From IMG/VR virus record IMGVR_UViG_3300049846_000848, positions 17,384 to 81,383 of that record: DNA of 64,000 bases; one strand, 5' to 3'. Shown here one piece after another: positions 18,517 through 35,420 of this stretch (positions within the stretch are counted from its first letter, which is position 1; each line of letters opens with the position of its first letter). Both the position numbers and the translations under genes were made by a program. The notes below the pieces were generated by a model. The model was given only the letters and a program-made list of their open reading frames with translations. It made no database searches and was not told the origin of the DNA. This DNA comes from a virus.

Positions 18517-20568
18517 ATGTCAACCAAGTACGATGTATTCAGTAATAAGTTTTCAGAAGATATCTTTCGTCAAAAGTATTCATTGAATGGTCAGGAGACT
18601 TGGGCTGATATGTGCCGACGAGTAGTATCGGCGGTATGCGGTCAACTGCTATCTCAGAAAGATCAAGATGAAATCTATAAGCTTATGCTGGCTAGGAAGT
18701 TTATTCCAGGCGGGCGGTATCTATATGCCTCTGGTCGAGCTAAGCATCAAGTTAATAATTGTTTCTTGTTTAGAGCTGAAGATTCGAGAGAGGGGTGGGC
18801 TGATTTAATGTCTAAGATTACCTCTAGCCTAATGTTAGGAGGAGGTATAGGCGCTGATTACTCTAAACTTAGATATGAGGGTGCTCCTATTGCAGGTACT
18901 GGTGGAGTATCCACTGGCCCAATAAGCCTTATGAATATGGTAAATGAAGCTGGTAGACATATAATGCAAGGTGGCCAGAGAAGGTCCGCAATCTGGGGGG
19001 GTCTAAACTGGAAACATAATGATATACCTGAATTTCTAGCATTAAAGAATTGGTCGGATGAACTAAAAGCTTTAAAAGAAAAAGACTTTAACTTCCCACT
19101 TCCTATGGAAGGAACTAACATAAGTGTTATTTATGACACTGAGTTCTTTATAGCCATAGAGGATGAGAATCATCCACTGCATTCTAAGGCGAAAGAAGTA
19201 TGGCTAGCCAACTGTAGGCAAGCATTTACTACTGCTGAGCCAGGATTCTCAATGAATTTCTTACGTGATAATGAATCACTTAGGAATGCACCAGTCTCGG
19301 CTAGGACTAGGGTACTAACAGACAAAGGCTATGTAACAGTAGGCTCCATCGTAGGTAAAGAAGTTAGATTGTGGACTGGGGATAGATGGGCTCTAACTAC
19401 GTTCAAACTTACTAAAAAGAACTCTGACCTAGTAGAAGTACACATGTCTAATGCGCTATCAATAGTATGTGACCCCGAACATCCTTTCATCATAAAGCCA
19501 CATAGCGATTGCACTAAGTCTGATTTAAAGAGAATAGCAGCTGGGCAGTTAGTACCAGGAATGCTAATTAGATCCGATGCCCCCGGTAGAAATGAGTTTG
19601 ATCCTGACGTAGAAGTAGTTTCAGTAGAAACTCTTGACTATAAAGAAGATGTTTACTGCTGCGATGTTGGAGTAGAGGAGCATTCCTTCATGGCTGAGGG
19701 CGTAATCATTTCAAACTGCACGGAAGTAGTATCAGAAGATGACTCCGATAAGTGTAACCTAGGTACTGCTTGGATCAATAGATTCAAGACTAAAGAAGAA
19801 TTCAAGAAAGCCATACCATTCATGGTAAAGTTTTTACTATGTGGCGGCATCTACTCAGATGTACCTACCGACAAGATAAAGGAAGTAGGTACCAAGAATA
19901 ATCGTATTGGACTAGGCATAGGCGGTATACATGAGTGGCTTATCACTAGGGGTATGGATTACGAGGTTACTCCAGAGCTACATAAGTGGCTTAAAGTGTA
20001 TGAAGATGAGTCTACTGCTAGCGCCTACATATTTGCTAAGGAACTGGGAGTATCTATCCCTAAAGGAGTTAGAGCTATCGCACCTACTGGCACCATAGGG
20101 ATTATGGCTGAGACTACCACTGGAATCGAACCACTATTCTGCAAGGCATACAAGCGACGCTATTTAGAAGGATCTAGTTGGAAACATCAATACGTAGTAG
20201 ACGGTATGGTTAAGCGCTTATTAGATCAAGGCGTAGCATTATGCGATATTAAAGATAGCTATGATCTTACATTCAAGCAGCGCGTTAAGTTTCAAGCTGA
20301 CGTACAGAGTTACGTAGACATGGCCATATCATCCACATGTAATATGCCAGCATGGGGTTCTGAGACTAATAATGAGAAGACACTTGAATCTAATGCTAAA
20401 ATACTGCTAAAGTATGCTAAGCGACTCCGAGGCTTTACTGTCTATCCTGATGGGTGTCGAGGCGGTCAACCCCTAACTAGAGTATCCTTAGAGGAAGCAT
20501 TAGAGTATGAGGGTACAGTATTTGAAGAGACTGAAAATAAATGCCTTAATGGCGTATGCGGATTATAG
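18517..20568 (+). CDS. nrdJ: Adenosylcobalamin-dependent (class II) ribonucleotide reductase with intein
   Basis: A 683-aa protein, about 541 aa without the intein. It would reduce ribonucleotides to deoxyribonucleotides using B12. Landmarks: FIPGGRYLYASGR (62-74), redox Cys82 in NNCFLF, GGGIGADYSKLR (108-119), the catalytic C-T-E with Cys401 and Glu403, the second redox Cys413 in DKCNLG, the APTGTIGIMAE phosphate loop, and a C-terminal redox pair Cys676/Cys681. The mini-intein (residues 259-400) splits the segment between Asn-Ala258 and Cys401, so splicing is needed to form the active site. It leads a nucleotide-metabolism group with dut and dcd. Confidence 0.9.
   Translation: MSTKYDVFSNKFSEDIFRQKYSLNGQETWADMCRRVVSAVCGQLLSQKDQDEIYKLMLARKFIPGGRYLYASGRAKHQVNNCFLFRAEDSREGWADLMSKITSSLMLGGGIGADYSKLRYEGAPIAGTGGVSTGPISLMNMVNEAGRHIMQGGQRRSAIWGGLNWKHNDIPEFLALKNWSDELKALKEKDFNFPLPMEGTNISVIYDTEFFIAIEDENHPLHSKAKEVWLANCRQAFTTAEPGFSMNFLRDNESLRNAPVSARTRVLTDKGYVTVGSIVGKEVRLWTGDRWALTTFKLTKKNSDLVEVHMSNALSIVCDPEHPFIIKPHSDCTKSDLKRIAAGQLVPGMLIRSDAPGRNEFDPDVEVVSVETLDYKEDVYCCDVGVEEHSFMAEGVIISNCTEVVSEDDSDKCNLGTAWINRFKTKEEFKKAIPFMVKFLLCGGIYSDVPTDKIKEVGTKNNRIGLGIGGIHEWLITRGMDYEVTPELHKWLKVYEDESTASAYIFAKELGVSIPKGVRAIAPTGTIGIMAETTTGIEPLFCKAYKRRYLEGSSWKHQYVVDGMVKRLLDQGVALCDIKDSYDLTFKQRVKFQADVQSYVDMAISSTCNMPAWGSETNNEKTLESNAKILLKYAKRLRGFTVYPDGCRGGQPLTRVSLEEALEYEGTVFEETENKCLNGVCGL
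19291..19716 (+). other. Mini-intein within the ribonucleotide reductase
   Basis: Residues 259-400 (142 aa) interrupt the RNR active-site motif, leaving Asn-Ala before and Cys-Thr-Glu after. Block A-like TRVLTDKGYVTVGSI, block B-like CDPEHPF, block F-like DVYCCDVGVEEHSF and block G-like EGVIISN followed by Cys are visible. There is no homing endonuclease domain. Residue 1 is Pro rather than Cys, Ser or Ala, and a Cys occupies position F:4, as in class 3 inteins. The penultimate residue is Ser, not His. Its splicing mechanism is therefore uncertain. Confidence 0.8.
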
Positions 20569-26569: not shown

Positions 26570-27490
26570 ATGAATTATGGTATTCCTTATATGGGTAGTA
26601 AGTCTAAGATCTTAAAGGATATATGTCCTCTATTCCCTAAGGCTACTCACTTTTATGATCTATTCGGAGGGGGCTTCTCGGTAACTGATTATATGCTTAG
26701 ACATAGAGGTAACGACTTTAAGCACTTTCACTTTAATGAGATTAAGCCCGGAATATGTGAACTAGTGCAGGATGCTATTAAAGGTAAATATAACTATGAT
26801 AACTTTAAGCCTGAATGGATCTCAAAGGAGAAGTTCTTTGCTAGCGGGGATGTCTACGTAAAGACTGTGTGGTCATTTGGGAATGATGGTAGAACCTACA
26901 TGTTTGGAAAGAATATAGAGGAGTATAAACGATCATTGCATCAAGCAGTAGTATTTAATGAGTTCGATCAATTCTCTAAAGATTTCCTAGGTATAGGTAG
27001 ATTCGAGAATTCTATGCCTATTAAGGATAGAAGACTCTTAATTAAGAAACTTACTAAAAATACCACCATGTCACCTAACCCTGCTATACGACTCCAGCAA
27101 CTCCAGCAACTCCAGCAACTCCAGCAACTCGAGCGACTCCAGCAACTCGAGCGACTCCAGCAACTCCAGCAACTCGAGTCAAGGCTATCATTTTATAATC
27201 TTGATTATAGGGAGGTTCCTATAAAAGAGGACAGTATCGTATACTGCGACATTCCCTATAAAGGGACTAAGGACTATAGCGTTAGCAGATTCAACCACTC
27301 AGACTTTATAGAATGGGCTGCTAATAACCCTAACCCAGTGTTTATCTCAGAGTACGAGATTCCAGATACTAGATTTTCCATAGTACATGAGGTGAGGAAG
27401 AGAGTACTTTTAGACTCAGCTCAAGCAAATAAATATAAGATAGAAAGGCTATATGCTAACGAAGCTGCTATGCGTAAGTTAAATAAGTAA
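26570..27490 (+). CDS. D12-class N6-adenine DNA methyltransferase
   Basis: A 306-aa protein with the SAM-binding opening PYMGSKSKI (6-14), DLFGGGFS (30-37) and the catalytic DIPY (227-230), a variant of DPPY. These place it in the Dam/D12 class, which methylates adenine in a short DNA site. Residues 175-204 are an Leu-Gln-Gln repeat coded by ten 9-bp units in the target-recognition region. The recognition site cannot be read from the sequence. RBS GGGAGG. It probably shields phage DNA from host restriction. Confidence 0.85.
   Translation: MNYGIPYMGSKSKILKDICPLFPKATHFYDLFGGGFSVTDYMLRHRGNDFKHFHFNEIKPGICELVQDAIKGKYNYDNFKPEWISKEKFFASGDVYVKTVWSFGNDGRTYMFGKNIEEYKRSLHQAVVFNEFDQFSKDFLGIGRFENSMPIKDRRLLIKKLTKNTTMSPNPAIRLQQLQQLQQLQQLERLQQLERLQQLQQLESRLSFYNLDYREVPIKEDSIVYCDIPYKGTKDYSVSRFNHSDFIEWAANNPNPVFISEYEIPDTRFSIVHEVRKRVLLDSAQANKYKIERLYANEAAMRKLNK
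27092..27181 (+). repeat. Ten 9-bp tandem units in the methyltransferase gene
   Basis: Units are CTCCAGCAA (seven), CTCGAGCGA (two) and CTCGAGTCA (last), giving LQQ, LER and LES. The unit length is a multiple of three, so copy-number change would lengthen or shorten the protein without a frameshift. It lies between the SAM-binding and catalytic motifs. Confidence 0.9.
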
Positions 27491-29606: not shown

Positions 29607-30455
29607 ATGCGATTTAAACTTAGATTAGATTTAAAATTAGAGTTAGTGGGTAGAACTCTCTATAGGATAGAGGCTACTGAGGATCAGAAGTATGCTAAGA
29701 AAGGTGATTTGGGCGGGTATATTGAGAAGGTAGAAAATCTCCAAGATAACGCCTGGGTCTCTGGTAATGCCCAAGTCTATGGTAATGCCCAAGTCTATGG
29801 TGATGCCCAAGTCTATGGTGATGCCCGAGTCTCTGGTGATGCCCAAGTCTATGGTGATGCCCGAGTCTATGGTAATACCCTAGTCTCTGGTAATGCCTGG
29901 GTCTCTGGTAATGCCCGAGTCTATGGTAATACCCTAGTCTATGGTGATGCCCGAGTCTATGGTAATACCCTAGTCTCTGGTAATGCCTGGGTCTCTGGTA
30001 ATGCCCGAGTCTATGGTAATACCCTAGTCTATGGTAATACCCTAGTCTCTGGTAATGCCCAAGTCTATGGTAATGCCCAAGTCTATGGTGATGCCCGAGT
30101 CTATGGTGATGCCCGAGTCTCTGGTGATGCCCGAGTCTCTGGTGATGCCCAAGTCTATGGTGATGCCCAAGTCTATGGTGATGCCCGAGTCTATGGTAAT
30201 ACCCAAGTCTATGGTAATGCTGAAGTCCGTACCAGATTCTCGGTGCAAAATATAATAGGTTTATCGTTTAATATGACACTAACTAACGAAGGAGTCTCAA
30301 TAGGATGCAAGTTCTTTAAGCATCATGAGATTGATCGTGTTACTTATCAAGACTTAAAGACAGAAGTATTAGATGAAGAAGAGTTTAATCTCTTAAAGAA
30401 TATATACTTGATTCATTATGAGTATATGCTTAAAATGGAAGACAGTGTTAAATAG
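29607..30455 (+). CDS. Hexapeptide-repeat beta-helix-like protein
   Basis: A 282-aa protein. After an N-terminal 45 aa with YRIEATEDQKYAKKGDLGGY, residues 48-204 consist of a six-residue repeat of the form A-x-V-x-G-N/D, 26 copies, then an AEV-type end. About 18 residues per turn would give roughly nine turns of a left-handed beta helix. The last 75 aa form a separate domain ending in a helix. I have seen this type in gut and other phages, without a known function. RBS GAGGAGG. Confidence 0.7.
   Translation: MRFKLRLDLKLELVGRTLYRIEATEDQKYAKKGDLGGYIEKVENLQDNAWVSGNAQVYGNAQVYGDAQVYGDARVSGDAQVYGDARVYGNTLVSGNAWVSGNARVYGNTLVYGDARVYGNTLVSGNAWVSGNARVYGNTLVYGNTLVSGNAQVYGNAQVYGDARVYGDARVSGDARVSGDAQVYGDAQVYGDARVYGNTQVYGNAEVRTRFSVQNIIGLSFNMTLTNEGVSIGCKFFKHHEIDRVTYQDLKTEVLDEEEFNLLKNIYLIHYEYMLKMEDSVK
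29751..30218 (+). repeat. 26 tandem 18-bp units
   Basis: The consensus unit is GCCCRAGTCTMTGGTRAT, 26 copies. The block 29851-29940 is identical to 29941-30030, an exact 90-bp (five-unit) duplication, so the array has grown recently by unequal recombination or slippage. Every unit stays in frame. Confidence 0.92.
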
Positions 30456-32585: not shown

Positions 32586-32989
32586 AAATAGTTAATATTA
32601 AAGAACTAAGAGACTATAAAAGAGATAATGAAAGCTACGCGAATTTTGATGGTTATGAGATCGAGACTGAGACCGATATTATTAGATTATTAATATCTAA
32701 CTATCAAGCCTGCTGTGAGACTTGGGGGCAGATAACCTCTGCCGACGACTTAAAAGAGTTTATAGGAGCTGAGATCCTACGTTTAGAGACGGTATCTTCT
32801 GGTGATTGGACTAAGTCTGAGATCATTAAAAATAAGATAGATGAGTACTACGACGAAGTGGAAGCAGCCTTTATCAACATAGAGACTGACCGTGGACTAC
32901 TACAGCTAGCCGTGTATAATCACCATAACGGGTACTATGGGCATGATATACTTATAGAGAGCACCGCTAAGGTAGGAGAGACTAAGTGA
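32582..32989 (+). CDS. Small acidic protein, unknown
   Basis: A 135-aa acidic protein (ESYANFDGYEIETETDIIRL; IKNKIDEYYDEVEAAFINIE; LLQLAVYNHHNGYYGHDILI). RBS AAGGAG. The start overlaps the previous stop and its own stop overlaps the MTase start, so the three are coupled. The C-terminal His-Tyr segment recurs in small phage proteins I have seen. Function unknown. Confidence 0.65.
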   Translation: MKIVNIKELRDYKRDNESYANFDGYEIETETDIIRLLISNYQACCETWGQITSADDLKEFIGAEILRLETVSSGDWTKSEIIKNKIDEYYDEVEAAFINIETDRGLLQLAVYNHHNGYYGHDILIESTAKVGETK

Positions 32990-33888
32990 CCAAGAAGCTT
33001 AAGGTACTCGATTTATTTAGCGGCTGCGGAGGTTTTAGCCTAGGTTTGCATCGTACCGGTGGCTATTCTACCGTAGGCTTCTGTGAGATCGATGCTACCT
33101 GCCAGAAGGTGCTAGCTAAGAACTTCCCTGGAGTACCTATACTAAAAGACATTAGAGATTTAAAGTACTTAAAACCCTCCAAGGAACTATGCGAACATAG
33201 CCTTAACTATGACTTGTACTCTGGAGATATAGACGTTATAACCGCGGGGTGGCCTTGCCAAGGGTACTCGGTCGCAGGTAAGAAGAGAGGATTTAAAGAT
33301 GAACGAAGTGGACTTTGGACAGAGGTTAAGAGAGTCATTAAAGAAGTTGGACCTAGATGGGTCATCCTTGAGAACAGTCCCAATCTGCGAAATCTCGGAC
33401 TTGCAAGAGTCCTTCAAGATCTCTGGGAGATCGGGTATCATAACATCCGATGGGACATTCTCTCTGCAGAAGCCTACGGTGCCATTCACAAACGAGAACG
33501 CATCTATATCATTGCCAACCGTGACGGTTATGGACTCGATAGCCAAGCCCATGCCCCCGCGGAAGAAGCACAACGGAGGCGGACAGAAGCCTGGGCTGAT
33601 TTCAGTCGCGGGAGATGCCCTGAACCCCGCTTTTACCGAATGGATGATGTCGCTACCAATGGACTGGACCCTTCCTGCGGGATTAGTTCAAACGCAGGAA
33701 GACGTAGAGGAGATCCAGAAGTGGAACGAATCAGAAAGCAACGAGTAAAGCAGTGCGGTAACGGCGTTTATCTACCCATAATCACTGAGATAGGTCGTTA
33801 TATTCAACACATAGAGCTGGCTAACAACATTAATAGGCAGTCTATCCCAACTCAATCTAAAGAAGCTAACCAAACATCAACTACTTAG
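32986..33888 (+). CDS. C5-cytosine DNA methyltransferase
   Basis: A 300-aa protein with the family motifs in order: I DLFSGCGG (9-16), II around CEID (33-36), IV GWPCQGYS with Cys91, VI LEN (128-130), VIII KRERIYIIA (169-177) and X QCGNGVYLP (257-264). It would methylate cytosine in a specific site using SAM. The recognition region between VIII and X is short and lies where a second frame is overprinted. The start is GTG, overlapping the previous stop, with GGAGAG before it. Confidence 0.85.
   Translation: MTKKLKVLDLFSGCGGFSLGLHRTGGYSTVGFCEIDATCQKVLAKNFPGVPILKDIRDLKYLKPSKELCEHSLNYDLYSGDIDVITAGWPCQGYSVAGKKRGFKDERSGLWTEVKRVIKEVGPRWVILENSPNLRNLGLARVLQDLWEIGYHNIRWDILSAEAYGAIHKRERIYIIANRDGYGLDSQAHAPAEEAQRRRTEAWADFSRGRCPEPRFYRMDDVATNGLDPSCGISSNAGRRRGDPEVERIRKQRVKQCGNGVYLPIITEIGRYIQHIELANNINRQSIPTQSKEANQTSTT
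33299..33748 (+). CDS. Overprinted second frame in the methyltransferase gene
   Basis: A 149-aa reading frame in the +1 frame relative to the methyltransferase, wholly inside it. It reads like real protein: SGIITSDGT (45-53), SLPTVTVMD (71-79) and LNPAFTEWMMSLPMDWT (108-124). I associate the last with a conserved LNPxWVEWLMGFPxGWT block of phage cytosine methyltransferases and related proteins. Its ATG has AGAGGA eight bases upstream. It may be a true overlapping gene, or the fossil of a frame swap in the MTase C-terminus. Confidence 0.5.
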   Translation: MNEVDFGQRLRESLKKLDLDGSSLRTVPICEISDLQESFKISGRSGIITSDGTFSLQKPTVPFTNENASISLPTVTVMDSIAKPMPPRKKHNGGGQKPGLISVAGDALNPAFTEWMMSLPMDWTLPAGLVQTQEDVEEIQKWNESESNE

Positions 33889-34688: not shown

Positions 34689-35420
34689 GTGAGATTAAAA
34701 CCATTTTTTACTTATTATGGAGGAAAATATAGGATTGCTCCTAAATATCCCTCCCCTAAATACGATAAGATAATAGAACCGTTCTGCGGTAGTGCTGGAT
34801 ATTCTCTAACTTATTCTCAAAAAAGAATTCATTTATATGATGTTAATGAGCGAATAGTAGGGTTATGGAATTATCTAATAAAAGTAGACGAGAAGGAGAT
34901 CTTAAATTTACCAGAGATATTTAATCATATTAGTGAATTAACCAATATTCCCCAGGAAGCTAAATGGTTGATAGGCTTCTGGTGTAATAAGGGATCGTGT
35001 GAGCCTAGGAATATGCCTTCTAGTTGGATGAGATCAGGAGTTAGACCCAATTCTTATTGGGGAGAGGCTATAAAGAATAGAATAGCATCTCAACTTAAAC
35101 ACATAAGGCACTGGAGTTGTGAGCTTAAAAGTTATAACCAATTAGTAGATAATTCACCCGCTACTTGGTTTATTGACCCTCCTTATTCATCTACTGCGGG
35201 AAGGCTATACACTTACGATAGTATAGATTACACGCAACTCTCTGAGTTTTGTATGAATAGAAACGGACAGACTATAGTATGTGAATCAGAGGGAGCCTCA
35301 TGGCTACCGTTCACCCCCTTATGTGTAGCTAAGGGGTCAGAAAGTCCTAGGGGCGGGAAGAAAATAATAGAATCGATATGGTATAATGACATTAAGATCA
35401 TCATAGAGGAGGACAAATGA
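34689..35420 (+). CDS. D12-class N6-adenine DNA methyltransferase (second)
   Basis: A 243-aa protein with the SAM-binding opening FTYYGGKYRIA (7-17), EPFCGSAGYS (30-39) and the catalytic DPPY (163-166) followed by SSTAGRLY. It is the second adenine methyltransferase in the window and lacks the Leu-Gln repeat of the first, so it probably recognises a different site. The start is GTG with GGAGGATATAG before it. Its stop overlaps the lipoprotein start. Confidence 0.85.
   Translation: MRLKPFFTYYGGKYRIAPKYPSPKYDKIIEPFCGSAGYSLTYSQKRIHLYDVNERIVGLWNYLIKVDEKEILNLPEIFNHISELTNIPQEAKWLIGFWCNKGSCEPRNMPSSWMRSGVRPNSYWGEAIKNRIASQLKHIRHWSCELKSYNQLVDNSPATWFIDPPYSSTAGRLYTYDSIDYTQLSEFCMNRNGQTIVCESEGASWLPFTPLCVAKGSESPRGGKKIIESIWYNDIKIIIEEDK

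Follow-up and report, generated by a model that had tools for sequence, protein, structure and literature searches.

In the C5-cytosine methyltransferase M.EcoHK31I, the gene for the small (beta) polypeptide lies inside the gene for the large (alpha) polypeptide in another reading frame, and M.EaeI is organised likewise. M.EcoHK31I (YGGCCR) is a two-polypeptide enzyme whose large subunit carries motifs I-VIII and X and whose small polypeptide carries motif IX; its recognition domain has been predicted in the large subunit and, to judge from the title of a 1995 paper cited there, both proteins are required for methylation in vitro (PMC3404938). In a second split C5-cytosine methyltransferase, M.AquI (CYCGRG), motifs I-VIII are found on the first polypeptide and motif IX on the second (PMC3404938). 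The locus described here belongs to this known kind of enzyme organisation, yet one that is broader and older than has been described. We found no earlier account in the literature of a nested overlap in phage methyltransferases, and it goes unmentioned in the passages of frameshift surveys and reviews that our searches returned.

The window, by which we mean the whole stretch of 64,000 nt that was analysed, comes from a virus record of 81,383 bases. As the preliminary description had claimed, it holds two open reading frames on one stretch, here called alpha and beta, of which beta lies wholly within alpha in the +1 frame. The features of the locus are as follows.

32974-32978, + strand: AGGAG, Shine-Dalgarno-like sequence 7 nt 5' of the alpha GTG
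32986-33888, + strand: alpha, proposed large subunit of a C5-cytosine DNA methyltransferase; GTG start, 300 aa, motifs I-VIII and X
33010-33036, + strand: alpha motif I, DLFSGCGGF, SAM binding (by alignment)
33253-33270, + strand: alpha motif IV, PCQGYS, with the catalytic Cys (invariant columns)
33286-33291, + strand: AGAGGA, Shine-Dalgarno-like sequence 7 nt 5' of the beta ATG
33299-33748, + strand: beta, nested +1-frame open reading frame, proposed small subunit; ATG start, 149 aa
33370-33375, + strand: alpha motif VI, EN (invariant columns E129 and N130)
33487-33516, + strand: alpha motif VIII, HKRERIYIIA (invariant columns H168, R170 and R172)
33512-33535, + strand: LPTVTVMD of beta, corresponding to the (W)PTPxAxD variable-region element of relatives (by alignment)
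33517-33750, + strand: alpha linker from motif VIII to X, overprinted on beta; constrained in the beta frame in relatives
33620-33670, + strand: beta motif IX, LNPAFTEWMMSLPMDWT (shuffle test; equivalent segment aligned to M.HhaI)
33751-33780, + strand: alpha motif X, QCGNGVYLPI (invariant columns G258 and N259), 3' of the beta end

Alpha, whose start codon overlaps the stop codon of the upstream open reading frame in the sequence GTGA, matches Pfam PF00145 (E 1.6e-48) and, over nearly its full length (residues 1-282), phrog_363 (E 2.6e-62), and can be aligned with the alphas of other nested loci. It contains motifs I, IV, VI, VIII and X in the order that defines C5-methyltransferases of PF00145; motifs VI and VIII had already been read in this frame, and motif IX was not found in it. 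Compared with the published description of M.EcoHK31I, the window shows the same distribution, with motifs I-VIII and X in alpha and IX on the small polypeptide alone, and the same nesting of beta (33299-33748) inside alpha (32986-33888), here in the +1 frame. M.AquI differs in having X on its second subunit as well: in the window, alpha carries X and beta, which ends at 33748, is nested over its whole length, so the second polypeptide does not carry both IX and X.

The C-terminal half of beta reads LPTVTVMD ... LNPAFTEWMMSLPMDWT. The preliminary description had placed SLPTVTVMD (33509-33535) and the latter segment in the +1 frame and had noted the separate ATG with AGAGGA before it, all of which are there. 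It had further recognised the LNP...W segment as a block conserved in phage methyltransferases; the conservation is borne out, yet the segment is more than a block, being the motif IX that alpha lacks. We base this assignment on position and on alignment to M.HhaI. In relatives, a catalytic-frame LNPDWVEWLMGFP segment directly precedes motif X, and the in-frame segment of one of them (L012) aligned to M.HhaI KLHPRECARVMGYP...GNSVV with a weak score, collinear with X. In PF00145 enzymes motif IX follows the recognition region and precedes X, and beta supplies it at the fitting DNA position, so that the motifs of alpha (I-VIII and X) and beta (IX) are complementary. In addition, the single-frame relative L043 has motif VIII, LLPTPAARD, LSPAFTEWMMGLPGGW and GNGVVP in that order in one frame, and this order leads us to equate beta with the recognition region and motif IX of an ordinary enzyme. 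The best reading of the beta sequence is thus as the probable carrier of a PTP-type variable recognition region together with motif IX. The same relative bears on the earlier suggestion that the enzyme once used the other frame: with PTP, IX and X all in the catalytic frame of L043, such an ancestry also fits the recognition region and motif IX.

Several tests support beta in the window itself. It is stop-free over 149 codons, where synonymous shuffles of alpha average 5.6 stops (P(0 stops)=0.0005). Its LNP...W segment (17 residues) scores 30.6 bits against a profile built from other nested loci, and this motif IX score was equalled or exceeded in 2 of 20000 shuffles. The score of the window against the full-length beta HMM (33.2 bits, reached by 54 of 2000 shuffles, P~0.03) is just modestly above that of the shuffles and is less decisive than the motif and stop tests. 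Tblastn with the window beta returned no match among 50,697 phage records. It did match phrog_1008 (E 1.7e-6), the family to which 56 of 56 beta homologues belong. By alignment, the window beta is approximately 18-29% identical to other betas. No NCBIfam match was obtained for it, no Pfam family was matched by beta, and a beta profile search of PDB sequences gave no match. AlphaFold2 models of beta alone (window and L052) had no confident fold (pLDDT 64) and Foldseek matched them to nothing in the PDB, both of which are evidence neither way. Since the window beta has no close relative, it is supported by its freedom from stops, by motif IX and by belonging to the family, and not by substitutions of its own.

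We therefore turn to the relatives for selection on the two frames. Scans of IMG/VR and phage records yielded 105 distinct viral loci in which alpha is open from motif IV to X and +1 holds motif IX, sampled by similarity so that locus counts are not a census; one locus (L260) was removed as a false positive of the regex classification. Approximately 20 further nested loci were found on bacterial genome contigs, including Clostridia, Paenibacillus and Rhodobacteraceae. The 105 loci together contain a single +1 stop between motifs IV and IX, against the 397.6 that synonymous shuffling of alpha would predict. The +2 control frame has 1469 stops against 1522 expected, and over motifs I-III, used as a further control, stop avoidance in +1 is absent (4.88 against 3.28 expected). 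These alpha-preserving shuffles and both controls led us to reject chance openness of the +1 frame. A +1 ATG with open reading into motif IV is present at 91 of the 105 loci (43.5 expected), and Shine-Dalgarno-like matches at beta starts are mildly enriched (79% versus 63%).

The strongest result for two-frame selection is the substitution pattern. In the register of this overlap, position 3 of an alpha codon falls on position 2 of a beta codon, and alpha position 1 on beta position 3; we compared differences at alpha position 3 with those at position 1 (a3/a1) in 26 independent pairs. The ratio is 2.74 over motifs I-III, 1.64 over IV-VIII, 0.67 over VIII-IX, 0.39 at IX and 2.61 from X to the end, with concordant results from an earlier, looser run. 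In the beta region, sites that are synonymous in alpha are thus the least variable and beta third positions the most variable. Where the overlap comprises the recognition region alone, a3/a1 is 2.70 over I-III, 0.34 in the beta region, 3.79 at IX and 2.84 after it, and constraint returns to the alpha frame exactly at IX. The frame of constraint switches with the domain layout; between VIII and IX constraint on beta is dominant and alpha is a near-passenger. This differs from the prediction made for M.EcoHK31I, as the VIII-IX region of the window's relatives is constrained mainly in the beta frame, and for this reason we provisionally assign the recognition region to beta. Dual coding, which the preliminary description had proposed and for which it had suggested a codon-level comparison of relatives, is supported by stop avoidance, start-codon enrichment and codon-position signature alike across many relatives. 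The second product would, however, not be a protein unrelated to the enzyme; the two products appear to be complementary parts of one enzyme.

Three layouts of the overlap were found. In the window type, beta comprises the recognition region and IX, and X is in alpha. In the second, seen in most of L008-L038 and also in L041 and L046, beta is the recognition region alone and alpha has both IX and X; an example is L012:1974-3023, in which the +1 open reading frame is a PTP-type recognition region by itself. We found no description of this layout (L008-L038) in the literature. Twenty-nine loci from freshwater, in which alpha carries IX and X, were considered as single-frame enzymes and rejected as such, their recognition region being in +1; single-frame controls (L237, L277, L279, L280, L290 and L291) have 5-10 stops in that frame. 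In the third, split layout (L001, L002, L044 and L049), which is like that of M.AquI, both IX and X are in beta, in +1 past the end of alpha. A methyltransferase split at an earlier point (VI/VIII) was seen in Mycobacterium phage Seabastian (L005:1441-2200), in the overlapping genes 75 and 76.

A tree from motifs I-VIII, obtained by a short search in which the window sits on a long branch and is not firmly placed, separates the overlap layouts from seven single-frame enzymes, except for the long-branched recognition-only row L243, and requires four changes for the nested layout. This grouping and the four changes suggest that the nested layout is old and has undergone few transitions.

In L105:2215-3162 and other nested loci, the (W)PTPxAxD element is often present in beta in 3-5 copies. 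Longer VIII-IX regions go with more TP elements in beta (Spearman 0.81), as would be expected if recognition modules were gained or lost; this trend is suggestive only, and the repeats may be arrays of such modules.

In our view, two polypeptides made from overlapping genes at this locus together form one C5-cytosine methyltransferase, with an internal start for beta and an active pair as the product, and judging from the sequences we put the probability of this reading at roughly 85%. Alpha would provide the catalytic large domain with motifs I-VIII and X. On the simplest model, ribosomes would initiate beta internally on the alpha mRNA, in +1, at an ATG of its own that has a Shine-Dalgarno-like site in front of it, and beta would supply the small domain with the variable target-recognition region and motif IX. 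Pairing of the two would give the active methyltransferase, and the VIII-X stretch of alpha over beta would serve as a linker that need merely stay open. Protection from restriction is the usual role of phage methyltransferases, and methylation would most likely shield the phage DNA from host restriction.

An alternative, which we regard as improbable, is that beta lacks a start of its own and that ribosomes translating alpha enter +1 by programmed frameshifting, giving a fusion. This would suit the split relatives, since IX and X there lie in +1 past the alpha end and a frameshift would rebuild the whole enzyme. It is unsuited to nested loci: with X read in the alpha frame, a fusion would either be without X or need two opposite shifts. 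The excess of +1 ATGs 5' of motif IV in nested loci, the ATG and AGAGGA of the window beta and the internal start chosen by the annotators of Paenibacillus phages likewise argue against it. Still less probable is that alpha is functional alone, the +1 frame being a relic of a single-frame enzyme or kept open by chance or by conservation of alpha amino acids. Similarity in +1 over motifs VI-VIII may indeed be partly forced by alpha, as alpha-preserving shuffles average 17.8 bits against the beta HMM; however, 1 stop against 398 expected across the 105 loci, and alpha-synonymous sites that vary least where beta third positions vary most, would not be kept in a relic, and at the level of the family this explanation is refuted. 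That beta is translated but, as an overprinted protein, has no relation to the enzyme and serves for instance in anti-restriction or regulation, could draw on its lack of a Pfam or NCBIfam family and of a recognisable AlphaFold2 fold, but is very unlikely indeed, given that beta has exactly the motif IX missing from alpha, that in L043 the stretch from VIII to X, PTP region and IX included, is in the catalytic frame, that the sister, recognition-only class has IX itself in alpha, and that M.EcoHK31I has the same organisation.

For the two-polypeptide enzyme, the suspicion that the overlap is widespread and unrecognised was right in its first part, given the 105 viral loci, and only partly so in its second, as M.EcoHK31I has been characterised and some Paenibacillus phages are annotated with both genes. 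Likha (gp51/gp52) and Rani (RANI_50/RANI_51) have two nested open reading frames in the window arrangement; the note on RANI_51 reads 'g50 Internal gene', both Likha frames are annotated as methyltransferases, and the labels of these pairs are hypothetical or plain methyltransferase, without a subunit role. Likewise, phrog_363 and phrog_1008 correspond to the alpha and beta products of nested loci, and the descriptions of PHROG 363 and PHROG 1008 say just 'DNA methyltransferase', with the nesting unmentioned. A beta query matched 97 phage records, and 40 of the 58 annotated records among the matches listed have a single feature under the match; in HB10c2, C72C1 and Lacticaseibacillus phage R23.9 (L004), alpha is the sole annotated feature over the stretch. 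Beta often goes unannotated because gene callers usually retain one open reading frame per stretch. The nested layout appears to be common and old in phages, with the second gene usually missing from annotations.

It is plausible, with somewhat better than even odds, that much of the phage C5-cytosine methyltransferase lineage carries its recognition domain in a second frame, as an ancient overlap system with several stable layouts. If so, the overlap would keep the conserved frame for catalysis apart from the one for specificity, which changes fast, and most specificity subunits would be missed by phage annotation. Were beta to carry specificity, alpha expressed alone as 'the methyltransferase' would fail, and predictions of the sites protected in phages would overlook the relevant protein. 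The family also offers a clear natural example of a long same-strand overlap that persists over large divergence and in which switches of the selected frame track the domain layout.

Elsewhere in the window, positions 18517-20568 encode a ribonucleotide reductase large subunit with an intein-like insertion, for which Intein_splicing was matched under its curated cut-off (E 1.8e-4) and no homing endonuclease domain was matched. An 18-base repeat of 26 copies at 29757-30220 codes for a YdcK-type beta-solenoid protein. A gene for a D12-class adenine methyltransferase (26570-27490) has an internal tandem repeat at 27091-27175, with 9.4 copies of a 9-base unit (protein LQQLQQLERL), and a second D12-class adenine methyltransferase open reading frame lies at 34689-35420, approximately 800 bases 3' of the cytosine enzyme.
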